From Alphaproteobacteria bacterium (GTDB lineage Bacteria; Pseudomonadota; Alphaproteobacteria; Thalassobaculales; Thalassobaculaceae): a stretch of DNA of 64,000 nucleotides. Under the pieces are notes generated by a model that was not told where the DNA came from, searched no databases, and worked only from the letters and a program-made list of their open reading frames with translations. The translations under genes were made by a program, and so were the position numbers. The stretch is from NCBI GenBank assembly GCA_022822665.1, contig JAJEAR010000039.1, forward strand, positions 1 through 64,000, given 5' to 3'. Below are positions 33,422-47,650 of this stretch, piece after piece (positions within the stretch are counted from its first letter, which is position 1; the number at the start of each line of letters is the position of its first letter).

Positions 33422-34302
33422 CGCGCCTGTCCGGTACGGCGCAGCACCACGCGCTGGGCCACTCCGATGGCGCCCACCATCAGGGCTGCGCAGATCGCGG
33501 CACCGAAGAGCGCCGACCAGATGATCAGCACCTGGCCGTAGTAGCTTCCGTTCAGCATCCGTGCGCCGAAGCCGCCCTGGCTGCCGGTGGGCAGTTCGCC
33601 GATGATCGCGCCCACGAGCGCAATGGCGACGGCGACCTTCAGCGACGCGAAGAGATAAGGCAGCGAGGAGGGCCAGCGCAGTTTCCAGAATACCTGCCAG
33701 TCGGACGCACTGTAGGTGCGCATCAGGTCGAGTTGCATGCCATCGGGCGCACGCAGCCCCTTGACCATGCCGACCGCCACCGGGAAGAAACTGAGATAGG
33801 CCGAGATCGAGGCCTTCGCGACCAGTCCGGATATCCCGACATTGTAGAGCACCACGATGATCATCGGCGCAACGGCCAGGATGGGCACGGTCTGGCTGGA
33901 GATGATCCAGGGCATGACGGAGAGGTCCATCACCCGGTTGTGCACGATGCCGACGGCCAGCAGGATCCCGAGGGCCACCCCCATGACGAAACCCAGCAGG
34001 GTCGCCGAGAGCGTGATCCACCCGTGATAGACCAGACTGCGCTTCGACGTGATGCGCTTGTTCGCCGTGGTTTCCCAGATCTCGGCGGCGACCTGGTGCG
34101 GAGCGGGCAGGACGGGGCGTTCCTGGGACATGGTAGCCGGCACAATCTCTGCCCAGCCGATCTCCACGCCCGCCCGGGCCGCCTGGTCACGCTCCCATTT
34201 GGCATTCAGGCCGACGGCGGCGACATACCACACCGCCACGATGACAAGGCAGATCACCGCAACCGGCAGGACGTTCCGCATCAGCCTGCTGGCCCGGTGC
34301 AT
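33418..34302 (-). CDS. ABC importer permease, pyrimidine operon (first)
   Basis: A 294-residue permease of the same class as its neighbour, with a longer periplasmic insertion after the first membrane helix (AKWERDQAARAGVEIGWAEIVPATM). The cytoplasmic coupling loop reads GMQLDLMRTYSASDWQVFWKLRWPSSLPYLFASLKVA. The two permeases are similar enough to suggest duplication. Together with the ATPase (34472-35260) and the binding protein (31562-32548) they make a complete importer. The gene is 169 nt downstream of the ATPase gene, the largest gap in the operon. Confidence 0.89.
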   Translation of the reverse strand: MHRASRLMRNVLPVAVICLVIVAVWYVAAVGLNAKWERDQAARAGVEIGWAEIVPATMSQERPVLPAPHQVAAEIWETTANKRITSKRSLVYHGWITLSATLLGFVMGVALGILLAVGIVHNRVMDLSVMPWIISSQTVPILAVAPMIIVVLYNVGISGLVAKASISAYLSFFPVAVGMVKGLRAPDGMQLDLMRTYSASDWQVFWKLRWPSSLPYLFASLKVAVAIALVGAIIGELPTGSQGGFGARMLNGSYYGQVLIIWSALFGAAICAALMVGAIGVAQRVVLRRTGQAR

Positions 34303-34471
34303 CCCGGACGGCGGACGGCGGGCCCCGCGTCACGCTGCGGGCTCGCGGGTGCCGGGCGCGGTCCGGGCAGGAGAGGCATCGTCGACATGCTCCCGTCGCG
34401 TCGATCGGTCGGACCGGCACTGTGCAGGAAGCACCGCCGGGGTTCCAGCCGGAATTCGGCCGCTCGCCGCG

Positions 34472-35260
34472 TTATCCGTCCGGGCCGCTGTGTCCCGAGC
34501 GCAGGCCTTCGCGCACACGCGTGGCCAGTTCCAGGAAGGCCGCGCTCTCGCGTATGTCGAGAGGACGCTCAGCCGGCAGCGGGCTCTCGATCACGTCGAT
34601 GATCCGTCCCGGCCTCGGGCTCATCACCACGATCCTGGTCGAGAGATACACGGCCTCCGGTATCGAATGGGTCACGAAACAGACCGTCTTTCCGGTCCGA
34701 GCGTGCAGCGCCAGCAACTGCTCGTTCAGGTGGTCGCGCACGATTTCGTCGAGCGCGCCGAAGGGTTCGTCCATCAGCAGCAGGTCCGCGTCGAATGCGA
34801 GCGCACGCGCGATCGAGGCTCTCTGCTGCATTCCCCCCGACAGCTGCCAGGGGAACATGCGGGCGAAGTCGCCGAGGCCGACGAGATCGAGGGCGCGCCT
34901 GACCCGCTCGATGCGTTCCTGCGCCGGGTAGCCCATGACCTCCAGAGGCAGGCGCACGTTCTTCTCGATGGTCCGCCACGGATAGAGTCCCGCCGCCTGG
35001 AACACGTAGCCGTAGGCCCGGTTAAGCCGTGCCTGTTCGGGTGTCATTCCGTTGACGGTGATCGTGCCGCCCGTCGGCTGCTCCAGGTCCGCGATCACGC
35101 GCAGCAGTGTCGTCTTCCCGCACCCGGAGGGGCCGATGAAGCTGACAAACTCGCCCGGCGCCACCTCCAGGTCGACATCCGACAGTGCATGGACGGGGCC
35201 GTCCCTGGTCTGGAAGACCAGGTCGAGCGAGGACGCGACGACCGCACCCGCACCGGTCAT
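34472..35260 (-). CDS. ABC importer ATP-binding protein, pyrimidine operon
   Basis: A 262-residue ABC ATPase with Walker A GPSGCGKTT, Q-loop YVFQAAGLYPWR, signature LSGGMQQR, Walker [14 protein letters not shown] and switch His in FVTHSIPEA. It belongs to the nitrate/sulfonate/pyrimidine importer class. ATG 35260 is preferred over a GTG nine codons upstream. It lies 49 nt after dihydropyrimidinase on the same strand and should energise uptake of that enzyme's substrate or precursor. Confidence 0.92.
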   Translation of the reverse strand: MTGAGAVVASSLDLVFQTRDGPVHALSDVDLEVAPGEFVSFIGPSGCGKTTLLRVIADLEQPTGGTITVNGMTPEQARLNRAYGYVFQAAGLYPWRTIEKNVRLPLEVMGYPAQERIERVRRALDLVGLGDFARMFPWQLSGGMQQRASIARALAFDADLLLMDEPFGALDEIVRDHLNEQLLALHARTGKTVCFVTHSIPEAVYLSTRIVVMSPRPGRIIDVIESPLPAERPLDIRESAAFLELATRVREGLRSGHSGPDG

Positions 35261-35309
35261 CACAGACCGCCGCCCCGCGGGCTGCACGGTGTTCGAACGC
35301 CCGGGGGAC

Positions 35310-36770
35310 TCAAACCCCGCTCGGGATGTTCAGCGGGTTGCGCTGGACCTTGCGCGGTGCGGTCAGTTCCTTCCAGCGGGCGAGCGCTTCATGCACGGCG
35401 GGGAACGCGCGCCGGCGCACGAACCGCCCGCGCCCGGGCCGGGGCTGCGAGTTCTTGCCGTGTTCCCAGACAATCTCGCCGCGGCTCAGCGTGTAGCGGG
35501 CCTGGGCCGAGACCTCCACTCCCTCGAAGACGTTGTAGTCGATGATCGATTTCTGGGTGGTGGCGGAGATCGTCTTCTTGATGTTCGGGTCCCAGACCAC
35601 GACATCGGCGTCCGCCCCTTCGACGAGCGCGCCCTTCTTCGGATAGACGTTGAGTATCTTTGCGATGTTGGTGGAGGTGACCGCAACGAACTCGTTCGGC
35701 GTGAGCCGGCCGGTATCGACGCCCTTGGTCCAGAGCACCGGCATGCGATCCTCGAGCCCGCCGGTTCCGTTCGGGATCATGGGGAAGCCGGCAAGACCCA
35801 TGCGCTTCTGGTCCGTGGTGAAGGCCGCATGGTCGGTCGCCACCACCTGGAGCGATCCGGCCGCCAGCCCGTTCCAGAGCCCGTCCTGGTGCACCTTGCC
35901 GCGGAAGGGCGGCGACATGACGCGTTGCGCGGCGTAGTCCCAGTCCTGGTCGAAATACTCCGATTCATCCAGCGTGAGGTGCTGGATCAACGGCTCGCCG
36001 TAGACCCGCATGCCCTTCTGGCGCGCGCGCCGTATTGCCTCGTGCGCCTGCTCGCAGGAGACATGCACGATGTAGAGCGGCACGCCCGCCGCGTCGGCGA
36101 TCATGATCGCGCGGTTGGCGGCCTCGCCCTCCACCTCCGGCGGTCGTGAAAAGGCGTGTCCCTCCGGACCGGTGAGACCTTGCTCCATATACTTTTCCTG
36201 CAGCGCCGCCACCACGTCGCCGTTCTCGGCATGGACGAGCGGCATCGCGCCGAGCGCGGCGCACCGGCGGAACGACGCGAACATCTCGTCGTCGTCGATC
36301 ATCAGCGCGCCCTTGTAGGCCATGAAGTGCTTGAAGGTGTTGATCCCGCGCCTGACGACCTCGGCCATCTCGTTGTGGATCTGCTCGTTCCAGTCCACGA
36401 TCGCGCAGTGATAGCCGATATCGATGCAGATCTGGTCCTTCGACTTGGTGTCCCAGGAATCGACCGCGCTCAGCAGCGAGCCGTCCTCGCCGGGCAGCAC
36501 GAAGTCGACCAGCATGGTCGTCCCGCCGGTCGCCGCCGCCCAGGTGCCTGACTCGAATGTCTCGGCGGCGGTCGTGCCCATGAAGGGCATTTCCAGGTGG
36601 GTGTGCGGGTCGATCCCGCCGGGGATCACATAGGCCTGCGAGGCATCGACGACTTCGTCTCCGTTCAGGTTCTCGCCGATGGCGGCGATTTTCTCGCCCT
36701 CGATCAGCACGTCGGCCTTCCAGGTCCGGTCCGCAGTGAGGACGGTGCCGCCCTTGATGACTTTGCTCAT
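35310..36770 (-). CDS. hydA: Dihydropyrimidinase / D-hydantoinase
   Basis: A 486-residue cyclic-amide hydrolase. Metal ligands His56 and His58 (DPHTHLEMPFMGT), the carbamylated-Lys motif FMAYKG (about residues 149-154), the metal His of PLVHAENGD and a later VHVSCEQAH, and the metal Asp in VVATDHAAF are all present. It opens dihydrouracil, dihydrothymine or 5-substituted hydantoins to N-carbamoyl amino acids. The next enzyme in the operon, a Zn-dependent carbamoyl hydrolase, would take that product. It corresponds to step 2 of reductive pyrimidine degradation. Confidence 0.94.
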   Translation of the reverse strand: MSKVIKGGTVLTADRTWKADVLIEGEKIAAIGENLNGDEVVDASQAYVIPGGIDPHTHLEMPFMGTTAAETFESGTWAAATGGTTMLVDFVLPGEDGSLLSAVDSWDTKSKDQICIDIGYHCAIVDWNEQIHNEMAEVVRRGINTFKHFMAYKGALMIDDDEMFASFRRCAALGAMPLVHAENGDVVAALQEKYMEQGLTGPEGHAFSRPPEVEGEAANRAIMIADAAGVPLYIVHVSCEQAHEAIRRARQKGMRVYGEPLIQHLTLDESEYFDQDWDYAAQRVMSPPFRGKVHQDGLWNGLAAGSLQVVATDHAAFTTDQKRMGLAGFPMIPNGTGGLEDRMPVLWTKGVDTGRLTPNEFVAVTSTNIAKILNVYPKKGALVEGADADVVVWDPNIKKTISATTQKSIIDYNVFEGVEVSAQARYTLSRGEIVWEHGKNSQPRPGRGRFVRRRAFPAVHEALARWKELTAPRKVQRNPLNIPSGV

Positions 36771-36818
36771 TCGAGGCCTCCGCTCATTCTCGTTTCCAGG
36801 GGCGCCGGGTCCCGTGCC

Positions 36819-38069
36819 TCAGTCCAGGAGCTCCGCCGTCTCCACCACCGCGTGGCAGAGTACATCACACCCCCGGGCAGCCCATTCCGGCGTGATCTCC
36901 TCGGCTTCGTTGTGGCTCAGCCCGTCGACGCACGGGCACATCACCATCGCCGCCGGTGCGACCATGTTGATCCAGCAGGCGTCGTGACCCGCACCGGAGA
37001 CGATATCCATGTGCGAATACCCGAGCCGTTCGGCCGCGTCGCGGACAGCCCCGACGCAGCCATGGTGGAACTCGGGCGGATCAAAGCTGCCCACGATCTC
37101 CATCTCGATCTCGCAGCCCAGCGCCTCGCACAGCGCGGGCGCCTTTTCCCGCACCTCGGCCACCATCCCCTCGAGTGTTTCCAGGACGTGGCTGCGAAAG
37201 TCGATCGTGCACACGACCCGGCCCGGAATGATGTTGCGCGAGTTCGGATAGACATCGACATGCCCGATGGCGCCAACCGCATTGGGCTGGTGCTTCATCG
37301 CCACCTCGTGCACCAGCTCGGTGATCTGGGCCAGGCCCCGCCCGGCATTCCTGCGCATGCGCATGGGCGTGGAGCCGGTGTGGCTTTCCTTGCCCCTGAT
37401 CCGGCACTCGATCCAGCGCAGACCCTGGCCGTGGGTGACGACGCCGATATCGCACTCCTCGGCCTCGAGGATCGGCCCCTGCTCGATATGCAGCTCGAAA
37501 TAGGCATGCATCCTGCGCGCACCGACCTCTTCCTCGCCACGCCAGCCGATGCGCTCCAGCTCGTCCCCGAAGCGCTTGCCTTCGGCATCGGTCAGGCCGT
37601 AGGCCCAGTCCTGCGCATGCACGCCGGCAAACACGCCCGACGCCAGCATCGGCGGCGCGTAGCGCGTCCCTTCCTCGTTGGTCCAGTTGATGACGACGAT
37701 CGGGCGTTTGGTCCTGATGCCCAGGTCGTTCAGGGTCCGCACGATTTCGAGCCCGCCGAGCACGCCGAGGACGCCATCGTACTTGCCACCGGTCGGCTGC
37801 GTGTCGAGGTGACTGCCGACAAAGACCGGCAGTGCGTCCGGATCCGTTCCGGGACGGGTGGCAAACATGTTGCCCATCTGGTCGAGGCCCATCTCGCAGC
37901 CGGCCGCCTCGCACCACTTCCGGAACAGTGCACGGCCTTCGCCGTCCTCGTCGGTCAGCGTCTGGCGGTTGTTGCCTCCCGCCACGCCGGGACCGATTCT
38001 GGCCATGTCCATCAGGCTGTCCCAGAGCCGTTCGCCGTTGATCTTCAGGTTTTCCCCGGGGGCGGGCAT
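36819..38069 (-). CDS. Zn-dependent N-carbamoyl amino acid hydrolase / beta-ureidopropionase
   Basis: A 416-residue M20/ArgE-type hydrolase. Metal-site segments are FVGSHLDTQPTGGKYDGVLGV, NWTNEEGTRYAPPMLAS, HIEQGPILEAE and a C-terminal GAGHDACWI. This set is typical of hydantoin utilisation protein C, allantoate amidohydrolase and bacterial beta-ureidopropionase. With dihydropyrimidinase next to it (48 nt), beta-ureidopropionase (step 3 of pyrimidine breakdown, releasing CO2, ammonia and beta-alanine) or L-carbamoylase are the likely roles. ATG 38069 has GAGGTG upstream; the GTG at 38093 is less likely. Confidence 0.9.
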   Translation of the reverse strand: MPAPGENLKINGERLWDSLMDMARIGPGVAGGNNRQTLTDEDGEGRALFRKWCEAAGCEMGLDQMGNMFATRPGTDPDALPVFVGSHLDTQPTGGKYDGVLGVLGGLEIVRTLNDLGIRTKRPIVVINWTNEEGTRYAPPMLASGVFAGVHAQDWAYGLTDAEGKRFGDELERIGWRGEEEVGARRMHAYFELHIEQGPILEAEECDIGVVTHGQGLRWIECRIRGKESHTGSTPMRMRRNAGRGLAQITELVHEVAMKHQPNAVGAIGHVDVYPNSRNIIPGRVVCTIDFRSHVLETLEGMVAEVREKAPALCEALGCEIEMEIVGSFDPPEFHHGCVGAVRDAAERLGYSHMDIVSGAGHDACWINMVAPAAMVMCPCVDGLSHNEAEEITPEWAARGCDVLCHAVVETAELLD

Positions 38070-38175
38070 GGGCACCTCACATTCACGGATCACGCTGGAA
38101 AAACGACGCTAGCAAGCTCCTAGGGCCGGTCAAGCGGAAAGTCTGTCCGGGCCTGCGCCGCCGCCGGCGGCATGG

Positions 38176-39177
38176 TCACCGGAACGCGGGAATGATCGAC
38201 CTGCCGTACTCGGCGATGATCTCTTCCTCGTCCCCGTTGTCGAGATAGATGTTGAACTGGGTGACGCCCGCCGCCTGGAGCTGCTCCAGTTTCGCCACGT
38301 GTTCCGCGGGTTCACCGAGCACGCTGAACCCGTCGATGATGTCGTCGGTGATGAAGTCGAGGAAGGCGTTGTCGCTCTGTCCGTGCTTCAGGTAGTCGTA
38401 GCCCCTGCGGCCCTCGATATAGGCTGTGAGCGAGGGCGGAATGTCCTCGCGCTCGGCGCCGTATCTCTCGACGATGTCGGCCACGTGGTTCCCGACCATG
38501 GCCGGAAACCAGCGCGTCGCCTCCCGGCAGGTTTCCCGGCTGCCGAAATACGCCGGCGCGGCGGACATGACCCGGTAGCCCGACATGTCCCGCCCCGCAC
38601 TCCGGCCGGCCGCGATCGCCTGATCGGCAAGCCACCTGCAGATCGAGGGTTCGGCGATCTGGAGTATCAGCCCGTCACCGACACGGCCTGCCGAGTCCAG
38701 GGCCTTCGGGCCGTAGGCGGCAACCCAGACCGGAAGTTCGTAGCCCGTTGCCCAGGGGAACTTCATCGGTTCCGGCACGGTGCCGTACCGGACTTCCTCG
38801 CCGCGCACCAGGGCGCGGACGACATGGATGAATTCCTCCATCCGGGCCAGCGATGACGGCCTCCTGCCCATGACCCTGACGGCGCTGTCGCCGCGGCCGA
38901 CACCGATGTCGAAGCGGTTGTTCGACTGCAGCGCCAGCGAACCGAAGAGCGAGGCCGCCGCGGACCAGTCGCGCGTGTTGGGGTTGGTCACGCAGGGGCC
39001 GAAACGGAGTGTCTCGGTGTGCTCCATGCACATGGCCATTGCCGGGTAACTCTCTCGCCAAAGGATATGGCTGTCATAGAACCAGCAGTGGGAGAACCCC
39101 ACATCCTCGGCCTGTTTCACCAGTGCACGGGCCCGATCGGGCTCCATGAACCCCTTGAAGGTAATTCCGAATTCCAT
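38176..39177 (-). CDS. LLM-class flavin/F420-like oxidoreductase (CPS_4043-like)
   Basis: A 333-residue luciferase-like protein. MEFGITFKGFMEPDRARALVKQAEDVGFSHCWFYDSHIL, LRFGPCVTNPNTRDWSAAASLFGSLALQSNNRFDIGVGRGDSAVRVMGRRP and PVWVAAYGPKALDSAGRVGDGLI are characteristic. From memory, the CPS_4043-type LLM subfamily is often found beside dihydropyrimidinase genes; I could not verify this here. It is the first gene of the pyrimidine operon and could perform the redox step on the ring, replacing or accompanying the missing dihydropyrimidine dehydrogenase. GGGAGACGG precedes ATG 39177. Confidence 0.87.
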   Translation of the reverse strand: MEFGITFKGFMEPDRARALVKQAEDVGFSHCWFYDSHILWRESYPAMAMCMEHTETLRFGPCVTNPNTRDWSAAASLFGSLALQSNNRFDIGVGRGDSAVRVMGRRPSSLARMEEFIHVVRALVRGEEVRYGTVPEPMKFPWATGYELPVWVAAYGPKALDSAGRVGDGLILQIAEPSICRWLADQAIAAGRSAGRDMSGYRVMSAAPAYFGSRETCREATRWFPAMVGNHVADIVERYGAEREDIPPSLTAYIEGRRGYDYLKHGQSDNAFLDFITDDIIDGFSVLGEPAEHVAKLEQLQAAGVTQFNIYLDNGDEEEIIAEYGRSIIPAFR

Positions 39178-39208
39178 GTCCGTCTCCCGGGTGCCACAGC
39201 ATTCCGGC

Positions 39209-39231
39209 TTCGTTGACCTGATATCAACGAA
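39209..39231. promoter_or_regulatory. 8-bp inverted repeat upstream of pyrimidine operon
   Basis: TTCGTTGA (39209-39216), 7-nt spacer, TCAACGAA (39224-39231): a perfect dyad starting 32 nt upstream of the first ATG of the reverse operon. The size and position suit a dimeric repressor. The core reads TTGACCTGATATCAA, whose left half resembles a RutR half-site (TTGACC), but the right half does not match, so the regulator cannot be named. Confidence 0.5.
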
Positions 39232-39232
39232 T

Positions 39233-39247
39233 GGCTCTCTGAGAGCC
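39233..39247. promoter_or_regulatory. GGCTCTC palindrome upstream of pyrimidine operon
   Basis: GGCTCTCTGAGAGCC, a perfect 7-bp inverted repeat around a single T, lies immediately beside the 8-bp dyad. It may be a second operator or a short hairpin in the leader. It lies about 56 nt upstream of the LLM gene start. Confidence 0.4.
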
Positions 39248-39349
39248 TGACTCAAGCAGAGTTTAGCGATTTCAATGGGTTGTGATTCAGTTCGGTGAGG
39301 AAGCTGAACGGAGCCACATGTGCCCTGAACCAAAACCGCTTGCCGCTAG

Positions 39350-39442
39350 TATCGGCGGGAAAGCGCGCGGTATGCAAGTAACCTCACGGACCGTGAGTGG
39401 GCCCTGATCGAGCCCTTCATGCCGCCGGCGCGCCGTAGCTGA
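39350..39442 (+). pseudogene. IS5-type transposase N-terminal remnant
   Basis: Forward frame reads ARYASNLTDREWALIEPFMP then PARRS and a TGA at 39440-39442. LTDREWALIEPxxPPARR is the recognisable start of IS5-family (DUF4096) transposases, normally followed by a GRPR motif and the DDE core. No more of the transposase follows, and no clean start precedes it, so this is a decayed fragment. Its right end meets an IS630-type remnant on the other strand. Confidence 0.65.
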
Positions 39443-39711
39443 CCTCGTCCTCGACGGACACCGGAGCATCATCGCTCGACACGCCGTCGCGAAGCACAGC
39501 CCGCGCCAGCTCGCTGAAACGGCCCGGAGACTCTGCGGATTTCCGGGGTCCGTCCCGGGATGGATCGACTGCGGCACACGTGTCGGAAGCCGAGACGGTG
39601 AAGCATCCGGCCCACACCTTGCGCAGTGAACTCACCATCACTACTTCGCTCGACCCAAACTCTGGTCGAGACAACCATCCGGCAGGACGGCGCATCCGCT
39701 TCGGGGTCCAG
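39418..39711 (-). pseudogene. IS630-type transposase remnant (frameshifted)
   Basis: On the reverse strand the first part reads GEFTAQGVGRMLHRLGFRHV followed by IPGRTPEIRRVSGPF (about 39640 down to 39514). This matches the winged-helix segment of IS630 transposases, as in YHERTVGKLLKKLGFSH. After a frameshift near 39515 the other frame continues FSELARAVLRDGVSSDDAPV then SVEDEVSYG. That matches the first DDE Asp region (VWFxDEARxG), with the invariant D/E dyad as EDEVSYG. It ends at the IS5-type remnant. It is decayed and not functional. Confidence 0.6.
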
Positions 39712-40075
39712 GCCAGCGTCAACACCATGCGGCCAGCGCAGACTGGCCCTCCTCAAGCGTGCGCCGGCGAGCGGAGCCCCCGGCATCGCTCGAACCATCC
39801 AGCCATCGGGCGTTGTAACGCACCGCTCTTTATGGCGGGCATCAACGCCAACAGCACACGAGTTATCGGTACGCGGCACTTCGCCTGGAATCCATGAGCA
39901 CGATCACTTGCCGATGAACCCGGTAATCCTGGTACTTGTGCGGCGAAGCCAGCGTGCGTAGGCTTACAGCCAAGTAGCCGGTATGTGCGATAGTGATATT
40001 CGCAGGCTTGTCGTACTTTTTCTGGGCCATTCCGGGTCTTCGCACCTGCCGAATCAAGAACACTTGGGAACTGCG
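39712..40075. other. Gene-free stretch left of the AAA/DUF4276 cassette
   Basis: No supported gene. It lies between IS remnants and the cassette, and includes a locally AT-richer patch (around 39990-40030) that may carry the cassette promoter. GGGA lies about 10 nt before ATG 40076. I could not assign promoter boxes with confidence. Confidence 0.4.
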
Positions 40076-41296
40076 ATGATCGAAGGCGGGACACCGCCGC
40101 GCATTGAACGGCTCAAGGTGCGGAACTTTCGTGCCTTGCGAGATGTAAAATTAACGCATTTGACACCGCTGACCGTGCTGATGGGTCCGAACGGCAGCGG
40201 TAAATCCACGGTGTTCGATGTCTTCGCATTTCTGGCGGAGTGCTTCGAGAGCGGTTTGCGCCGGGCCTGGGAGAAGCGCGGAAGGGCCAAGGAGCTCAAA
40301 TCGCGCGGCGGCGACGGGCCAGTCCTGATCGAGATCGCGTATCGCGAACAACCGCGAACACCCCTGATCACCTATCACCTGGAAGTTGACGAATTCAACG
40401 GTCGACCGGTCGTGGTTTGGGAATGGCTGCGCTGGAAGCGTGGGAGCTACGGGGCGCCTTTCAGATTTCTCGACTATGCTGGTGGGACCGGACGCGTTAT
40501 TCCGGGTGAGTTACCTGACGCACAGGACGAACGGACCGACGTTCCCTTGAGTTCGTCAGACACACTCGCAGTCAATGCACTCGGCCAACTGGCGGAAAAC
40601 CCCCGCGTCGTTGCACTTCGCAACTTTATCATGGGTTGGCACGTCTCCTATCTCTCGCTTGAAGATGCCAGAGGGCAACCCGAGGCGGGACCCCAGGAGC
40701 AACTGAGCAAGACCGGGGATAATCTCGCCAATGTGATCCAGTATCTTTCGGAAGAACACCCCAGACTTCTGGACTCCGTTTTCGCTCGACTTCGCGAACG
40801 GGTCCCCAAGATCCAGGCGGTGACAGCGAATCCGATGCCGGACGGAAGGCTCTTGCTGCAGATCAAGGATGCCCCGTTCTCCGAACCGGTCATGGCCCGC
40901 TTTGCATCCGACGGTACTCTCAAGATGCTCGCTTACCTTGCCTTGCTGCACGGTCCGGTACCGCCGCCGTTCACCGGCATCGAGGAGCCGGAGAATTTCC
41001 TGCATCCCCGCTTGCTCTACGGCCTGGCAGAGGAATGCCGGGAGGCGGCGGGGGCGACGCAGATCCTGGTGACCACCCATTCGCCGTTCTTCCTCGACGC
41101 GCTTCGGCCCAGGGAAGTGCGCGTGCTGTGGCGCGACGAATCCGGCTACACAAGATGTCACGCGCTGGACCGGAACAAGAAGGTCAAGGCGTTCATGGAC
41201 GCTGGTGCCCTGCTGGGCGATCTCTGGATGGAGGGACATTTCGGCGTCGGAGACCCGCTGACCGCAGGCGGAATGCCGACGCACGCCAGGGACTAA
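40076..41296 (+). CDS. AAA (ABC/SMC-like, OLD-type) ATPase of a putative defence pair
   Basis: A 406-residue ATPase of the AAA_15/AAA_21 group. [18 protein letters not shown] and Walker [10 protein letters not shown] (residues 37-45) open the protein. An ABC-like signature region [16 protein letters not shown] (about 276-291), Walker [12 protein letters not shown] (301-311) and the H-motif [12 protein letters not shown] (332-343) close it. No C-terminal TOPRIM nuclease is attached, unlike OLD; the following DUF4276 gene may supply it. Related two-component ATPase plus TOPRIM pairs (PARIS, AbiL, split OLD types) block phage. The DNA is less GC-rich than flanking genes, suggesting transfer. Confidence 0.88.
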
Positions 41297-41303
41297 AACT
41301 GAC

Positions 41304-41957
41304 TTGTTCGCCTCCCATTTCGAGTTTCACGTGGAAGAGGTTTCCATGGAAGCCTTTCTCCGCGGTTGGCTGCCAAGGTTTCTGCCAGAGACATGCACGT
41401 TCGGCATTTACGCCTATTCGGGCAAGAATGCACTGTTGCGAAAGCTGGGAAACCGCCTCCAGGGTTACGCGGCCTGGATGCCGGCCGAATATCGCATCGT
41501 AGTGGGCGTGGATCGCGACAGGGATGACCGCCACGGGCTCAAATCCAGACTTGAGAACATTTGCGAAGGAGCCGAACTTGGGTCCAGAAGTGTCACCGGC
41601 AGGTCCGATTGGCAGGTCGTCACCAGGATTGCAATTGAAGAGCTGGAAGCGTGGTATTTCGGTGACTGGCATGCCGTACAGTCGACCTACCCCGGTGTAT
41701 CGCCGAACATTCCAGGCCAGGCTCCTTATCGAGATCCCGATGCGATCGCGGGGGGCACTTGGGAGAAGTTCGAACGGGTCCTCCAAAGACACGGGCACTT
41801 CAGGCAAGGTTTGGCCAAGGCGCAGGCCGCCACCGAAATAGCAAGACACATAGACCCACAAAACAACCGGTCTCATAGTTTCTCGGTGTTTCGCGATGCT
41901 ATTTCCGAGGCCATTCCATTATGTGTAGCGAGTCCGGAAGCAAGAACATCGCGATAG
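41304..41957 (+). CDS. DUF4276 family (TOPRIM-like) partner of the AAA ATPase
   Basis: A 217-residue protein that begins with the DUF4276 signature EFHVEEVSMEAFLRGWLPRFLP (residues 7-28). An acidic VGVDRDRDD stretch at 67-75 and RIAIEELEAWYFGD at 108-121 follow. Together these give the Glu and DxD pattern of a TOPRIM-like fold, suggesting metal-dependent nuclease or related activity. The only in-frame start is TTG 41304, 8 nt after the ATPase stop, so translation is probably coupled. It is also noticeably lower in GC than the surrounding metabolic genes. Enzymatic activity is inferred only. Confidence 0.82.
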   Translation: MFASHFEFHVEEVSMEAFLRGWLPRFLPETCTFGIYAYSGKNALLRKLGNRLQGYAAWMPAEYRIVVGVDRDRDDRHGLKSRLENICEGAELGSRSVTGRSDWQVVTRIAIEELEAWYFGDWHAVQSTYPGVSPNIPGQAPYRDPDAIAGGTWEKFERVLQRHGHFRQGLAKAQAATEIARHIDPQNNRSHSFSVFRDAISEAIPLCVASPEARTSR

Positions 41958-42237
41958 AATGGCTGACGGGTCTCGATTTCTTCATCACCCGCATGCGCTG
42001 GTCACGTCGATGCAAAGGTAGCGAGGCGGCCGCCATTCCAGGCACGTGGCGACATCCGGTCCTGCCATTTGTCCTGTCAGCCGGCGGAGATTGTGCAGGC
42101 CCGGACTGCGTCGGAGTTCCGGAATGCGGGCCGCCGGTGTCATCACTGCCAAACAGATCGAGCGCGATCGGCATGGAGTCGATACCGGTCGACAGGAGAC
42201 GCTCCGGGACGACATTACTCCGGCGCGCGTCCTGTTC
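41958..42237. other. Gene-free stretch right of the AAA/DUF4276 cassette
   Basis: About 280 bases with no supported gene; reading frames on both strands give no recognisable protein. Composition rises back to the chromosomal GC level across it. It is the probable right edge of the accessory insertion, but I saw no terminal repeat or target duplication matching the left edge. Confidence 0.4.
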
Positions 42238-42891
42238 TTACCGACCATCCCGGGAAGGTGGACGGGCGTTCCCGGCGGGCGCGGGAAAGGCTTGCTCCGG
42301 CCGGTACTCCTCGAAGCTCGACAGGAACTGCGCGTCGCACTCCCGCTGCCAGGACGAGCCGGGCAGGACCGCCGAGACGCAGGGATAGTTTGCGCGGAAT
42401 GCCCGGGTGCGCTGTGTCGTTTCGATGGCGATCGCGACCAGGCCGCAGACGCGGCCCTCCTGGCGCTCGACCAGCGCGATGGCGCCCTCCATCGTACCGC
42501 CGGTCTCGATCCACTGGTCCACCAGCAGGACCCGGGTGCCCGGGGCGAAGGCCGGCAGGCGCATCTCCATCTGCTGGGTCCGGCCCGAGTAGTTCGTAAA
42601 GGACACCGCGTCGGTGTCGACGCAGAGCTTGCCCGCCTTGCGCACCGGCAGGAAGCCCACTCCCAGCCGTGCCGCCAGGGCCGCGCCCAGGACGAACCCC
42701 ATGGCGTCCAGTCCGGCGACCACATCGGGCTCGATGCCTTCCAGGTCGGCCTCCAGGTCGTCGAGCAGGTCGTGGAACGCGGCCCCGTTGATGTAGATGG
42801 ACGTCGGGTCCAGCCAGGCGAACTGGTCTCCCTTGGTATTCGGCGCCATCAGCCGCAGATACCACCGGTCGTCGCGGGAACCCCTATCCAT
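42238..42891 (-). CDS. PRTase-fold phosphoribosyltransferase
   Basis: A 217-residue type I phosphoribosyltransferase. The PRPP-binding loop reads VLLVDQWIETGGTM (residues 121-134), close to the consensus of adenine and orotate phosphoribosyltransferases. AGLDAMGFVLGAALAARLGVGFLPVRKAGKL supplies the flexible-loop region. It should transfer ribose 5-phosphate from PRPP to a nucleobase. ATG 42891 overlaps the BtpA-like gene stop by 8 bp, so the pair is translated together. Divergent importer and deaminase genes suggest a shared nucleobase-related pathway. The exact base is unknown. Confidence 0.85.
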   Translation of the reverse strand: MDRGSRDDRWYLRLMAPNTKGDQFAWLDPTSIYINGAAFHDLLDDLEADLEGIEPDVVAGLDAMGFVLGAALAARLGVGFLPVRKAGKLCVDTDAVSFTNYSGRTQQMEMRLPAFAPGTRVLLVDQWIETGGTMEGAIALVERQEGRVCGLVAIAIETTQRTRAFRANYPCVSAVLPGSSWQRECDAQFLSSFEEYRPEQAFPAPAGNARPPSRDGR

Positions 42892-43627
42892 GGCAGCCGA
42901 TCTCCCGGGCAACCCGCATCAGCCGCGCCAGCCGGGCGGGGTCGATCCTGTAGAAGTCGCCCTCCCGGTTGATCCCGGTGGCAACCAGGAAGGCGTCGAC
43001 TTCGGCGTAGTCCGTGGCGTTTTCCGGCGTCACCCCGGAGGCAAGTGCCAGCGGTGCGGCGCCGGTGCCGGCCCTGAATTGGCGGACCTTGTTCGGACCG
43101 GCCTCCTCCCCGGTGGCCGGGCCCGAGGTCGTGACCACATCCATGAAGCGCACCGCCTCGCGCGCGGCGTCCTGCCAGCACTCCGGGTCCACGGGACGCT
43201 GCTTCTTGAAGGCCGTGCCGCCGAAGTACAGCCCGGACCAGCTGCTGGCCGCCCGCGCGGCAGCAATCCGGCGGGCCTGCGACGTATCGCGCCCGGTCTC
43301 GTCGATGCGCGCATCGTCGGCCCAGTAGGCATCGATCCGGCACCCCTCGCCTTCCAGGTCGCCCAGGACCGGGAACGCATCGCGGCCGGTGACGGCCAGG
43401 AAATTGACCCCCATCCAGAGCGACGGCCACGCGGAGCGGACCTCGCGGATGACCGGCAGGAACGCATCAACGCCGAAGTCATGATTGATCAGGAAGCAGC
43501 CCGGGGCACCCTCGCCCACCAGGATGCGGAGGTTCTCGCGCACCTGCCCCGCGTCGAGCACGTGGATCACCGGCAGGACCACCGGACCCGGTGACTTGAA
43601 GTACTTGTGAAAGTCGTGGCGCGTCAT
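42884..43627 (-). CDS. BtpA/SgcQ-like TIM-barrel protein
   Basis: A 247-residue TIM-barrel-like protein. The C-terminal phosphate-binding side is seen in FMDVVTTSGPATGEEAGPNKVRQFRAGTGAAPLALASGVTPENATDYAEVDAFLVATGINREGDF, which fits the BtpA/SgcQ family. The N-terminus (GPVVLPVIHVLD) also fits. BtpA is linked to photosystem I assembly in cyanobacteria, but bacterial relatives are of uncertain function and often lie near sugar- or nucleobase-handling genes. It is the first gene of the reverse pair with the phosphoribosyltransferase and is divergent from the importer operon. Confidence 0.7.
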   Translation of the reverse strand: MTRHDFHKYFKSPGPVVLPVIHVLDAGQVRENLRILVGEGAPGCFLINHDFGVDAFLPVIREVRSAWPSLWMGVNFLAVTGRDAFPVLGDLEGEGCRIDAYWADDARIDETGRDTSQARRIAAARAASSWSGLYFGGTAFKKQRPVDPECWQDAAREAVRFMDVVTTSGPATGEEAGPNKVRQFRAGTGAAPLALASGVTPENATDYAEVDAFLVATGINREGDFYRIDPARLARLMRVAREIGCHG

Positions 43628-43700
43628 GGTGAGGAATCTGCGGCAGATCGTCCAGACAGTCAAAGAAGTTCCTTGCCGCCGGGCGCCTTTCGCGGTTGCA

Positions 43701-43718
43701 TGTGAATGGCAATTCACA
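43701..43718. promoter_or_regulatory. Perfect 18-bp inverted repeat in divergent promoter
   Basis: TGTGAATGGCAATTCACA: 7-bp arms (TGTGAAT and ATTCACA) around a 4-nt spacer, ending 19 nt before the binding-protein ATG and 73 nt from the BtpA-like ATG. It is well placed to control one or both transcripts. The outer TGTGA/TCACA looks Crp-like, but the spacing is 8 rather than 6, so I do not call it a Crp site. Confidence 0.55.
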
Positions 43719-43737
43719 GGAGACGGGAGATCGGAAC

Positions 43738-44859
43738 ATGAGCGAACGGTCGAACCTGACGCGCCGCAGCGTGCTCGCGATGACAGGCGCAACGGCGCTG
43801 TGCGCCCCATTCGTCCGCCCCGCGCGGGCGGCCGCAACCGAGATCAACATGCTGGCCTGGTACGGTCATGGCGAACCTGACATCGTCGGCGCCTTCGAGG
43901 AAGCCAACAATGTGAAGTTCAAGCCGAAGTACTATGCCGGGGGTGACAACATGCTGGCGCTCATCGCCCAGTCTCCCCCGGGTACCTACGACGTCATCCT
44001 CTCGGACACCGAGTTCGTCCAGCTGCTGAACGCGGCCGGCTACATCGAGCCCCTGGACGCGAACGACTACCCGTTTGACGACATGCTGCACGACGATTTC
44101 ACCAAGTTCCCCGGTCACTGGGACGGCGACACCCTGTTCTCGATGATGGTGCGGTTCGGGCACCTGGGCGTCAGCTACAACACGACCGCGATCTCGGCCG
44201 AGGAAGCCATGAGCTACAAGTGCTTCTGGAAGCCCGAGGTGAAGGGCAAGGTCGGGCATTTTGACTGGCACCTGCCGTCGCTCGGCATGATGAGCCTGTA
44301 CAACGGCAACGGTGCCGGGCTGTGGGATCTCGATGACGCCGCGTGGCAGGCCGTGCAGGAGACCACCATGAGCCTGCGCCCGCAGGTCGGCGGCTTCTTC
44401 GACTACGGCGGTACCTTCAACAGCCTGAAGAACGGCGAGATGCTGGCCATGTGCGGGATCGGCGACTGGATCACCGGTGTCCTGGAAAAGGACGGCGCGC
44501 CGGTGGCCTCTGTCATTCCCGAGGAGGGCGGCATACAGTGGACCGAGAGCTACTGCATCGGCAAGGACTCGTCCAAGGCGGACATCGTCAGGTCCTTCAT
44601 CCAGTACATGCTGAGCCCGGAAGGACAGGTGAAGTCGGCCCAGATGGCCGCCTATCCCGGCAACTGCATCACCAGGGGCGGGCGGGCGGCCCTCGTTGCC
44701 GCGGACATCGCCGAGGCCCAGCGTACCAACCAGGTGGACGGCAACCCGATGGACCCGATCGCGCTGATCAGGGACGGCCGCATCCACTACCGCAACATCC
44801 CGGTCAACCAGACGCTCGAGGACTGGAACGACTTCTGGTCCGAGTACAAGAACGCCTGA
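43738..44859 (+). CDS. Polyamine-type ABC binding protein (PotD/PotF-like), Tat signal
   Basis: A 373-residue periplasmic binding protein of the spermidine/putrescine class. The N-terminus has a twin-arginine signal (LTRRSVLAM, residues 7-15) and a cleavage region near RARAA. INMLAWYGHGEPDIVGAFEEANNVKF and IAQSPPGTYDVILSDTEFVQLLNAAGYIEPLD are typical family segments. Its partners are the two permeases and ATPase downstream. The adjacent deaminase, deacetylase and phosphoribosyltransferase suggest the ligand may be a nucleobase-derived amine or a similar nitrogen compound rather than a polyamine. Confidence 0.9.
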   Translation: MSERSNLTRRSVLAMTGATALCAPFVRPARAAATEINMLAWYGHGEPDIVGAFEEANNVKFKPKYYAGGDNMLALIAQSPPGTYDVILSDTEFVQLLNAAGYIEPLDANDYPFDDMLHDDFTKFPGHWDGDTLFSMMVRFGHLGVSYNTTAISAEEAMSYKCFWKPEVKGKVGHFDWHLPSLGMMSLYNGNGAGLWDLDDAAWQAVQETTMSLRPQVGGFFDYGGTFNSLKNGEMLAMCGIGDWITGVLEKDGAPVASVIPEEGGIQWTESYCIGKDSSKADIVRSFIQYMLSPEGQVKSAQMAAYPGNCITRGGRAALVAADIAEAQRTNQVDGNPMDPIALIRDGRIHYRNIPVNQTLEDWNDFWSEYKNA

Positions 44860-44865
44860 TGCCGG

Positions 44866-44909
44866 GCCGGACGCCTGGCGCTGGGGTCCCCGCGCCAGGG
44901 CCGTCCGGC
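44866..44909 (+). terminator. Strong hairpin between binding-protein and permease genes
   Basis: A two-part stem: GCCGGAC (44866) pairing with GTCCGGC (to 44909), and CCTGGCGC with GCGCCAGG inside it, around a 10-nt loop. There is no T tract. Such hairpins after binding-protein genes stabilise the upstream mRNA or attenuate the rest, giving an excess of binding protein over permease. Confidence 0.5.
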
Positions 44910-44946
44910 GGCGACCCCGCAGCCCCGTGACGGCGCGAAACCGACG

Positions 44947-45813
44947 ATGGCCGGTCGCTATGTCCAGGCTCGTGCCATGAACCGTTTCGCGCTCGTCTTC
45001 CGGCTTCCGATCATCGTCTGGCAGGGACTGTTTTTCCTCGGTCCCCTGTTCTTCATGATCGTGATGAGCTTCTTCCTGGTGAAGAACTACCGCATGGAGG
45101 AGGCGTTCGAGCTCAAGAACTGGGCCCGGATGCTGACACGCGGCTACGTCTGGGACAGCTACTGGTACACGCTGGGCATGGCGGGCTCGGCCACGCTGGT
45201 GGCGACCCTGGTCGCCTTTCCCGCCGCTTACGCGCTTGCCTTCCGGGTGTCGGCGGAGGTGCGGCGCTGGGCCATCTTCCTGCTGATCATCCCCTTCTTC
45301 ACGTCCTACCTGGTCCGCACCTTTTCCTGGTACGTGATCCTGGCGGGGTCAGGGGTGATCAACGCCGGGCTGGGAACCGTCGGGTTCGGCCCCTACACGA
45401 TGCTCAATACCCCGTTCGGCACCGTCGTCGGCTACCTGACCCTGACACTGCCACTGGTCGTGATCCTGCAGACCGTCGCGCTCGCGAATATCGACCAGAA
45501 CCTCGTCCAGGCCGCGCGCAACCTGGGCTGCTCGCCCCCGCGCACGCTGATCTCCGTCGTCGTGCCGCTGGCGAAGACCGGGCTCATCATCGCCGCCCTG
45601 TTCTGCTTCATCCTCTCGTTCGGCGACTTCGTAGCACCCTATTACCTGGGCGGCTCCAAGCCCCCGACACTGCCGATACTCATCATTGACACCACGAAGT
45701 CCGGCCAGCAATGGCCGCGGGCCGCCGTCGTTGCGGTCATGATGATGCTCACGCTCTTTGCCATCGCCGCCACTGCCATCTGGCTGGCCTACCGAAGGCG
45801 AATAGCGTCATGA
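44947..45813 (+). CDS. ABC permease (PotB-like)
   Basis: A 288-residue inner-membrane protein with about six hydrophobic helices. The EAA-type loop reads ANIDQNLVQAARNLGCSPPRTLISVVVPLAKTGLI. Neighbouring PotA/C/D-like genes mark it as the first permease of a spermidine/putrescine-class importer. ATG 44947 is used; ATG 44977 is equally possible because neither has a strong ribosome-binding site. It overlaps the next permease by 4 bp. Confidence 0.9.
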   Translation: MAGRYVQARAMNRFALVFRLPIIVWQGLFFLGPLFFMIVMSFFLVKNYRMEEAFELKNWARMLTRGYVWDSYWYTLGMAGSATLVATLVAFPAAYALAFRVSAEVRRWAIFLLIIPFFTSYLVRTFSWYVILAGSGVINAGLGTVGFGPYTMLNTPFGTVVGYLTLTLPLVVILQTVALANIDQNLVQAARNLGCSPPRTLISVVVPLAKTGLIIAALFCFILSFGDFVAPYYLGGSKPPTLPILIIDTTKSGQQWPRAAVVAVMMMLTLFAIAATAIWLAYRRRIAS

Positions 45814-46598
45814 GCGGGCGGATCGCGACCGGGCTTCTTCTCGGCTGGCTGCTGCTGGTGTTCGTGTTCATCTTCGCGCCGATCGTCGCGTCGGTCATCT
45901 TCTCCTTCAACTCGGACCGGTTCCCGACGATCCCGCTCGGCTCCTTCACCACCCACTGGTACGACACGATATTCGCCGACGCCGAGATCGGCGAGGCCGC
46001 CCGCAATTCGATCATCGTCTCGCTCTCGACGTCCGTCATCGCGACGACGCTGGGCTTTGCCACCGCCTATACCGACTATCGCTACAGGTTCCGCTTCAAG
46101 GGGCCGTACCTGGCGCTGATCCTGCTGCCGCCGACGATCCCGCTGATCATCATGGCGCTCGCCATGCTCGCCTGGCTGTCCTGGATCGGGGCGTCGGGCC
46201 AGCTCTGGTCGATCATCATCGCGCATTCCGTGCTGACGGCACCCTTCGCCATGGCGATCCTGCGGCTGCGGCTGCACCAGATCGATCCCGACCTGGAAGC
46301 CGCCGCCTGGAACCTGGGCTCCTCCGAATGGCGGGCGCTGCGGTCGGTCATACTGCCGTTCTGCCGGCCCGCCATCATTTCCGCAGCCTGCCTGACCGCC
46401 GCCATTTCCTTCGACGAGTTCGCGGTGGCCTGGTTCGTGAGCGGACTGAACAAGACCGTGCCGGTCATCATCCTCGAGATCGTCCAGGGCAATATCGATC
46501 CGCAGGTCAACGCCATCGGTTCGCTGGTGTTCCTCACGTCAATGACACTGGTGGTCCTCGCCCAGCTCTTCTTCATCGCCAGGGTGGGACGCGCATGA
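45810..46598 (+). CDS. ABC permease (PotC-like)
   Basis: A 262-residue permease with six hydrophobic segments and the coupling-loop sequence LHQIDPDLEAAAWNLGSSEWRALRSVILPFCRPAII. It is the second channel subunit of the PotDBCA-type importer. Its start overlaps the previous stop (ATGA) and its stop overlaps the ATPase start, so the three genes are translated as a unit. Confidence 0.92.
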   Translation: MSGRIATGLLLGWLLLVFVFIFAPIVASVIFSFNSDRFPTIPLGSFTTHWYDTIFADAEIGEAARNSIIVSLSTSVIATTLGFATAYTDYRYRFRFKGPYLALILLPPTIPLIIMALAMLAWLSWIGASGQLWSIIIAHSVLTAPFAMAILRLRLHQIDPDLEAAAWNLGSSEWRALRSVILPFCRPAIISAACLTAAISFDEFAVAWFVSGLNKTVPVIILEIVQGNIDPQVNAIGSLVFLTSMTLVVLAQLFFIARVGRA

Positions 46599-47650
46599 AG
46601 GATCCACTCGTCGTTCTCTCGGGCGTGGTCAAGCGGTTCGGTACCTTCACTGCCGTCCACCGCCTGGACCTTGAAATCGCACAGGGCGAGTTCATCGCGA
46701 TCATGGGCCCGTCCGGCTGCGGCAAGACCACGACGCTCCGGATGATCGCCGGACTGGAAACGCCGAGCGAGGGCGAGGTCCGCATCAGCGGACAGGTGAT
46801 GAACGACGTGCCGGTTCACGAGCGCGACACGCCCCTGGTCTGGCAGTCGCTGGCGCTGTTTCCATTCCTCAATGCGCGAGAAAACGTCGAGTTCGGACTC
46901 AGGATGCGCGGGGTCGACACCGTCGAGCGGCGCCGGCGCGCGATGGAATGGCTGGAACGCCTCGACATCGGGGCGTTCGCCGAGCGCAGTGTCGACACGC
47001 TGTCAGGCGGGCAGCGCCAGCGTGTTGCCCTGGCCCGTTCCCTGGTAACGGAGCCGCGCATCCTGCTACTGGACGAGCCGCTCTCGGCGCTGGACGCCCA
47101 TCTCGTCATTCGCATGCAGGGTGTACTCACGCGCCTGCAACGCGAGCTCGGGATCACCTTCGTCCACGTCACCCACTCGCAGTCCGAGGCCCTGGCCATG
47201 GCCGACCGGATCGTGATTATGTCGGAGGGCCGCGTCGTGCAGATCGGACGGCCGCGGGAGATCTACCGGACGCCCGGGAACCGCTTCGTGGCCGAGTTCG
47301 TCGGACGCAACAACATCCTGAGCGGGATCAGTCGCGGGGACGCGATCGAAACGGCGCTCGGCACCTTTCCCGCAGCCGGCCTGCCGGCGCCGGGCAGGCC
47401 CGCGACCCTCGTCATCGCCGCCGACCTGGTCGAGATCAGCCAAGCACCCCGCGACGGGGCAATTCCGTGCTCGCTGATCTCGGAGGAGTTCGTCGGAGCA
47501 ACGGTGACCCTGTTCCTCGAGGCGGCGGACGGAACCGAACTGAAGGTGCAGGTGCCGGAACGCGCGCTGGGCGAGCTGAACCAGCATGCCGGCAGCCGGT
47601 ACCATCTCAGCTGGCCCGCCGACGCCGGCCATGTCCTGACCGAGACCTGA
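46595..47650 (+). CDS. ABC ATPase with TOBE domain (PotA-like)
   Basis: A 351-residue ATPase. Walker A GPSGCGKTT, signature LSGGQRQR, Walker B ILLLDEPLSALDAH and switch His in HVTHSQSEA are intact. The C-terminal part from about residue 245 is a TOBE-like beta domain (RNNILSGISRGD to VEISQAPRD and a further repeat). This layout is that of PotA/UgpC-like importer ATPases. It ends 12 nt before the deacetylase gene. Confidence 0.93.
   Translation: MKDPLVVLSGVVKRFGTFTAVHRLDLEIAQGEFIAIMGPSGCGKTTTLRMIAGLETPSEGEVRISGQVMNDVPVHERDTPLVWQSLALFPFLNARENVEFGLRMRGVDTVERRRRAMEWLERLDIGAFAERSVDTLSGGQRQRVALARSLVTEPRILLLDEPLSALDAHLVIRMQGVLTRLQRELGITFVHVTHSQSEALAMADRIVIMSEGRVVQIGRPREIYRTPGNRFVAEFVGRNNILSGISRGDAIETALGTFPAAGLPAPGRPATLVIAADLVEISQAPRDGAIPCSLISEEFVGATVTLFLEAADGTELKVQVPERALGELNQHAGSRYHLSWPADAGHVLTET

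Follow-up and report, generated by a model that had tools for sequence, protein, structure and literature searches.

Does the pair of adjoining genes found in an alphaproteobacterial contig form an anti-phage system, and, if so, to which of the known systems that join an ATPase to a TOPRIM nuclease does it belong? The pair lies in a stretch of 64,000 nucleotides that was analysed as a whole (the window), and an initial annotation had described it as a split OLD/PARIS-like defence cassette, made up of an ABC/SMC-type ATPase gene (gene A) and a DUF4276 gene (gene B).

Gene A was found to be an intact open reading frame, and the Walker A, signature-like, Walker B and H motifs ascribed to it in that annotation are all present. 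Searches against Pfam identified AAA_21 (2.9e-29) and AAA_15 (3.7e-18) in its product. The gene and its motifs are as follows, with conservation figures taken from a 53-row alignment of homologues:

40076-41296, plus strand: gene A, ABC/SMC-type ATPase, HEC-01A (PDLC04182), with its ATG at 40076 and its stop at 41296, 406 aa
40184-40210, plus strand: Walker A of gene A, residues 37-45; G37, N39, G40, G42 and K43 invariant, P38, S41, S44 and T45 at least 90% conserved (53 rows)
40907-40918, plus strand: ABC signature-like SDGT of gene A, residues 278-281; S278-T281 invariant (53 rows)
40979-40996, plus strand: Walker B of gene A with the catalytic Glu, IEEPEN, residues 302-307; E303-N307 invariant, I302 at least 90% conserved (53 rows)
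41072-41086, plus strand: H-motif of gene A, TTHSP, residues 333-337; H335 and P337 invariant (53 rows)

The single-chain AlphaFold model of gene A (pLDDT 87.9) was compared with known structures. The best Foldseek matches were PtuA of retron I-A and of Septu (E 1e-13), and VIA-align gave Z values of about 20 to the heads of SMC, Rad50 and PtuA proteins. By its sequence and its predicted structure, gene A is an SMC/PtuA-like ABC ATPase. The nearness to Rad50 and SMC heads, together with the DNA cutting reported for OLD-type TOPRIM domains (PMC10568477), would also fit a pair engaged in DNA repair or recombination in the manner of Rad50/SbcCD, in which an SMC-like ATPase tethers DNA and a TOPRIM nuclease processes the ends. 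However, the long helices of a coiled-coil arm are absent from the model, and a protein of 406 aa leaves no room for such an arm. The patchy accessory distribution of the pair, its repeated transfer across phyla and the embedding of relatives in restriction-modification operons, all described below, likewise argue against a repair function, which we regard as improbable.

Gene B follows gene A on the same strand after a spacer of 7 nt (41297-41303), one nucleotide shorter than the 8 nt given before. Its product matched Pfam DUF4276 at 3.6e-25 over residues 10-198, in agreement with the earlier assignment. The 5' end of gene B has no ATG, the next one being at 41347; a TTG start was inferred because the frame contains neither ATG nor GTG further upstream and because the HEC-01B profile begins at residue 5 of the protein. 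Such a start may mean low expression. The acidic clusters of TOPRIM type that had been noticed in this protein, Glu residues and a DxD, proved to be strongly conserved in a 45-row alignment of homologues:

41304-41957, plus strand: gene B, DUF4276 protein with a predicted TOPRIM fold, HEC-01B (PDLC04202), 217 aa from the inferred TTG start
41334-41339, plus strand: acidic pair E11-E12 of gene B, at the TOPRIM Glu position and the end of strand 1 (residues 5-10 in the model); at least 90% conserved (45 rows)
41511-41519, plus strand: DxD of gene B, D70-R-D72, at the end of strand 63-70; D70 and D72 invariant (45 rows)
41637-41654, plus strand: third acidic cluster of gene B, EELEAW, residues 112-117; E113, L114, E115 and W117 invariant (45 rows)

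Beyond these clusters, G120, D121 and S190 are invariant among the 45 homologues, and K41, K80 and K172 are conserved in at least 90% of them.

The single-chain AlphaFold model of gene B was of high confidence (pLDDT 91.6, pTM 0.87). The initial annotation had held that its reading would fail if the predicted structure showed no TOPRIM fold. The top rows of the VIA-align search include OLD TOPRIM domains, namely 6nk8 (Z 10.4, rmsd 4.0 over 172 residues), 6njv (Z 10.0) and 6p74 (Z 9.3); 2p62, a structure without an assigned function, tied with 6nk8 at Z 10.4, and all other rows were at Z 8.3 or below. Structures of AriB and RloB were not among the rows of that list. Foldseek found no significant match of the model in the PDB, the best hit (E 5.8e-3) being an unrelated enzyme, and neither the sequence of gene B nor its 45-row profile found a relative in the PDB. 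Since Foldseek by itself was not significant, the TOPRIM assignment rests on VIA-align and on the placement of the motifs. In the model, E11/E12 at the end of strand 1 and D70-x-D72 at the end of strand 63-70 appear, on a reading of the topology, to lie as they do in TOPRIM domains. Gene B is probably a TOPRIM-fold two-metal nuclease, and the analysis provides for DUF4276 a predicted TOPRIM nuclease fold together with a few invariant residues as targets for mutation.

The profile searches suggested in the initial annotation, against DUF4276, AAA_15/AAA_21 and models of defence systems, detected all three Pfam families and gave a single answer as to the identity of the pair. In PADLOC, gene A matched the HEC-01 model PDLC04182 at 6.2e-153 (profile positions 2-404 of 406) and gene B matched the HEC-01 model PDLC04202 at 1e-77 (2-200 of 204). 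As both genes match HEC-01 models, this type of pair is already catalogued in PADLOC-DB v2, which settles whether the exact subtype had been described before, a point that the annotation had left open. In two other models, PDLC04143 and PDLC04144, the labels HEC-01A and HEC-01B are swapped, the model of ATPase length being called B and that of DUF4276 length A, so that in this profile pair the labels do not tell the two genes apart. The abbreviation HEC, for "Hma-embedded candidate", covers candidate defences recognized by their embedding within Hma systems, and antiviral activity has been reported for some of them (PMC12988326). Protection against T4 and T5 is reported for HEC-04, in which an ABC ATPase is fused to a TOPRIM domain, in PMC12111858, where a preprint by Payne et al. 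2024 is given as the source of HEC-01. In the literature searched, no paper contained "DUF4276" and none tested HEC-01 itself; the source preprint lay outside that search. On sequence evidence, the window pair is an intact, mobile two-gene cassette of HEC-01, a candidate anti-phage system, and our analysis thus verifies that a catalogued candidate, hardly described in the literature searched, is present here as an intact and mobile copy.

The window copy shares with HEC-01 the full-length model matches of both proteins and the layout of adjacent ATPase and DUF4276 genes; it differs in not being embedded in an Hma system, an embedding that was the route of discovery and is not part of the defining models. 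The description "split OLD/PARIS-like" was borne out as a statement of how the pair may work and not as one of membership. As in the OLD nucleases (class 1, and class 2 represented by GajA), an ABC ATPase is linked to a TOPRIM domain, OLD TOPRIM domains rank with the closest structural matches of the predicted fold of gene B, and a putative acidic metal site (E11/E12, D70 and D72) is conserved in it. OLD, however, is one polypeptide, whereas two open reading frames with an intervening stop are found here; in sequence, gene A resembles OLD over the ATPase part only, and no GajB-like helicase, as in Gabija, was seen among the neighbouring genes examined. PARIS likewise encodes its ABC ATPase (AriA) and TOPRIM protein (AriB) in genes lying side by side, but gene B is a DUF4276 protein with no match to DUF4435 or AriB at E<=1, and gene A matched AriA at 1.7e-28, far more weakly than HEC-01A. 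AbiL and RloA-RloB have the same two-gene layout of ATPase and TOPRIM protein; gene B gave no match to RloB or AbiLii at E<=1, and hhalign of gene B against an RloB alignment, both alignments being shallow, returned a non-significant probability of 2.8%. The Rlo genes were named for their linkage to type I restriction loci. In Septu and retron I-A (PtuA-PtuB), PtuA proteins are the closest solved relatives of gene A by Foldseek, whereas the partner here is a DUF4276/TOPRIM protein instead of the HNH nuclease PtuB, and no retron components were found beside the pair. By membership, then, the pair is not PARIS, OLD, Septu or AbiL as judged from its sequence; by analogy it probably works like them, with an ATPase sensor controlling a TOPRIM nuclease.

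We then considered the place of the pair in the genome. Both genes had been described as lower in GC than their neighbours, and this was confirmed: GC over 40-42 kb is 0.59 against 0.64-0.68 nearby, and GC3 is 0.71 in gene A and 0.61 in gene B against 0.86-0.89 in the flanking genes. Comparison with a sister genome (G001) delimited a variable segment, the flanks of which align to that genome at window positions 33957-39242 (95.4%; L124 1-5291) and 42239-42602 (94.8%; L124 5743-6106). The segment also holds a single transposase remnant, so that the statement that the pair sits beside decayed transposases was supported for one and not for several.

39243-42238, no strand assigned: variable segment carrying the A+B pair, 2,996 bp; replaced in the sister genome by 451 bp of unrelated sequence
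39443-39879, minus strand: decayed transposase remnant, called IS630-like from its sequence; HTH_33 at 39469-39879 (23.6 bits, cut-off 25), and 71% DNA identity of 39443-39722 to a transposase-like region on another contig of the host genome (G000:C78)

The broken transposase next to the pair, the TTG start and the low GC would all suit a decayed, functionless remnant beside dead transposases. Against such decay, the frames are full-length relative to the HEC-01 profiles and all motifs are intact. The dN/dS is around 0.1, with values against the relative L034 of about 0.08 for gene A and about 0.15 for gene B; such low ratios show that both genes are under purifying selection and maintained. 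We therefore consider loss of function very improbable. The surroundings of the pair comprise a luciferase-like oxidoreductase, a phosphoribosyltransferase and transport genes, i.e., a metabolic and transport neighbourhood and not a defence island, and no restriction or Hma-like genes adjoin the pair in the window. A TnpB-like open reading frame (L124 6242-7507, against window position 42602) interrupts the phosphoribosyltransferase gene that borders the site of the pair in the sister genome, which also lacks the transporter region of the window at 43257-47245; these two differences mark the whole area as a variable hot spot.

The distribution of the pair was examined next. Each of the 80 loci taken from the genome collection has gene A immediately upstream of gene B on one strand, mostly with a gap of -10 to +35 nt, and an A-like open reading frame stands beside DUF4276 in 27 of 27 loci from the class sample. 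The pairing in every locus suggests that the function most likely needs both genes. ATPases without a partner were looked for and rejected as a class: the loci L131 and L139 are either truncated by a contig end or degraded, and even the homologue at L136 has a TOPRIM-like open reading frame next to it. At that last locus (882-2685; G165:C1), an ATPase of 33% identity precedes a frame that carries GES..DxD..FELEAWW-like motifs and seems to encode a TOPRIM partner of divergent sequence. DUF4276 is carried by 1 of 36 genomes of the family and by 19 of 385 genomes of the class, and the sister genome has unrelated sequence in its place, so that the pair is not the constant housekeeping locus that the initial annotation had named as the other finding that would count against its reading. 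The nearest homologues of gene A (82-87%) belong to Alphaproteobacteria, a Pseudomonadales MAG and Cyanobacteria, and the closest clade of gene A mixes these groups across phyla with full support, subject to the tree's own caveats. Judged from these sequence comparisons, the pair is accessory and horizontally acquired. Several sample names look like those of sponge-symbiont bins, which suggests, as far as names can, exchange within one community. Relatives of 27-54% identity were found in 8 plasmid records, and no match to the pair was found in the phage records searched.

A tightly coupled, mobile two-gene cassette of this kind might also be a toxin-antitoxin or selfish addiction module with defence as a side effect. 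AAA_21 is called "putative AbiEii toxin" in Pfam, which points in that direction, as does the fact that many ATPase-nuclease defence pairs act as a toxin plus its regulator. The best matches of gene A, however, are HEC-01 ATPases and PtuA-like folds and not the AbiEii nucleotidyltransferase, and defence would account at least as well for the transfer into hsd operons; we consider an addiction module unlikely.

At least 12 relatives of the pair are placed inside type I restriction operons, flanked by hsdM/hsdS on the upstream side and by hsdR on the downstream side, all on one strand, and 17 loci are within 200 nt of an hsdM/hsdS/hsdR-type gene, often 2-9 nt after hsdS. Negative distances to hsdR are probably an artefact of a seed HsdR frame that begins upstream of the true start. 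The commonest nearest-neighbour families of the relatives are HSDR_N (7/59) and Methylase_S (7/60), and a copy on the Synechocystis plasmid pSYSM is close to a phosphorothioation-associated gene. On a Meiothermus plasmid, gene A runs 4 nt into gene B, and gene B runs 4 nt into hsdR. This hsd and phosphorothioation context of the relatives supports a defence role of the pair. In the same plasmid, M. taiwanensis pMtWR-220 (L032 3796-15653), the S and R genes flank DUF4433 and macro-domain (DarT/DarG-like) genes followed by the HEC-01 pair, so that two candidate defences with overlapping frames are nested in one type I restriction-modification operon.

A precedent for such an arrangement is PrrC, the gene for which sits within an hsd region; EcoprrI keeps PrrC silent, and the T4 anti-restriction peptide Stp activates it (PMC2610378). 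Like PrrC, relatives of the pair couple an ABC ATPase module to a nuclease inside hsd operons; PrrC differs in being a single protein with an anticodon-nuclease domain, whereas the pair is a two-protein TOPRIM system that is an orphan in the window. The pair could accordingly be pictured as a guard of type I restriction, in which gene A senses the inhibition of HsdR/M/S by a phage anti-restriction protein and unleashes gene B, acting here in trans on a type I system elsewhere in the genome. An HSDR_N protein (a 1,102-aa open frame) is encoded on another contig of the host genome, and linkage to a type I system is also rare for RloC, a relative of PrrC (PMC2610378). On the other hand, most relatives, and the window locus itself, have no adjoining restriction system; gene A has no domain specific to restriction-modification; and the embedding may only reflect the co-transfer of independent defences, as the DarTG-like genes in the same Meiothermus operon illustrate. 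We hold such a guard function to be possible though doubtful. Equally tentative is its extension to the whole type, by which DUF4276 pairs of HEC-01 kind would be a TOPRIM-based, two-protein counterpart of PrrC at the hsdS|hsdR junction in many phyla, firing on disabled restriction, also in trans as free-standing cassettes. The relatives inside restriction operons nevertheless hint at a possible trigger of HEC-01, and the repeated insertion between hsdS and hsdR raises a testable question, namely whether DUF4276 guards type I restriction as PrrC does.

Taken together, we consider it likely that the pair is an intact, horizontally acquired, stand-alone HEC-01 cassette, in which an SMC/PtuA-like ATPase controls a probable TOPRIM nuclease against phages. 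The core of the initial reading, an accessory candidate anti-phage pair of ATPase and TOPRIM protein, was thus right, given the HEC-01 match, the TOPRIM-like model and the patchy distribution. Counting against this explanation are the position outside a defence island, the null Foldseek result for gene B, the tie with 2p62 and the TTG start. ATPase-TOPRIM precedents are OLD, Gabija and PARIS, of which OLD and Gabija cut DNA, while the AriB nuclease of PARIS cuts tRNA (PMC10568477, PMC12409363). By analogy with the control of AriB by AriA, gene A is most likely an ATP-dependent sensor and scaffold that controls nuclease B. The ATPase would assemble as an oligomer and keep nuclease B inactive; on sensing a cue of infection, which might be a phage protein, such as an anti-restriction protein, or aberrant DNA, it would free or activate gene B, which would then cut tRNA or DNA and stop phage growth, possibly by abortive infection. 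What we infer in this scheme is protection against phages, cleavage by nuclease B together with its target, the triggering signal and an A-B complex. In other respects the window copy is unremarkable, a pair of defence genes in a segment of accessory DNA.

Near a contig end, the host genome carries another ATPase-DUF4276 pair of divergent sequence (L002 201-2091; G000:C55, ~22.8-24.5 kb; larger view, L161). Its ATPase matched HEC-01A at 1.1e-54, whereas its DUF4276 partner had no PADLOC match at 1e-10 and passed the Pfam cut-off, so that screening for HEC-01 could miss this pair. Elsewhere, three DUF4276 genes lie within ~7.5 kb of one genome (L007, L024 and L026; G294:C1:845974-853440) and five dispersed copies occur in another, G371 (L016, L022, L023, L025 and L027), indicating that the DUF4276 family multiplies within genomes.
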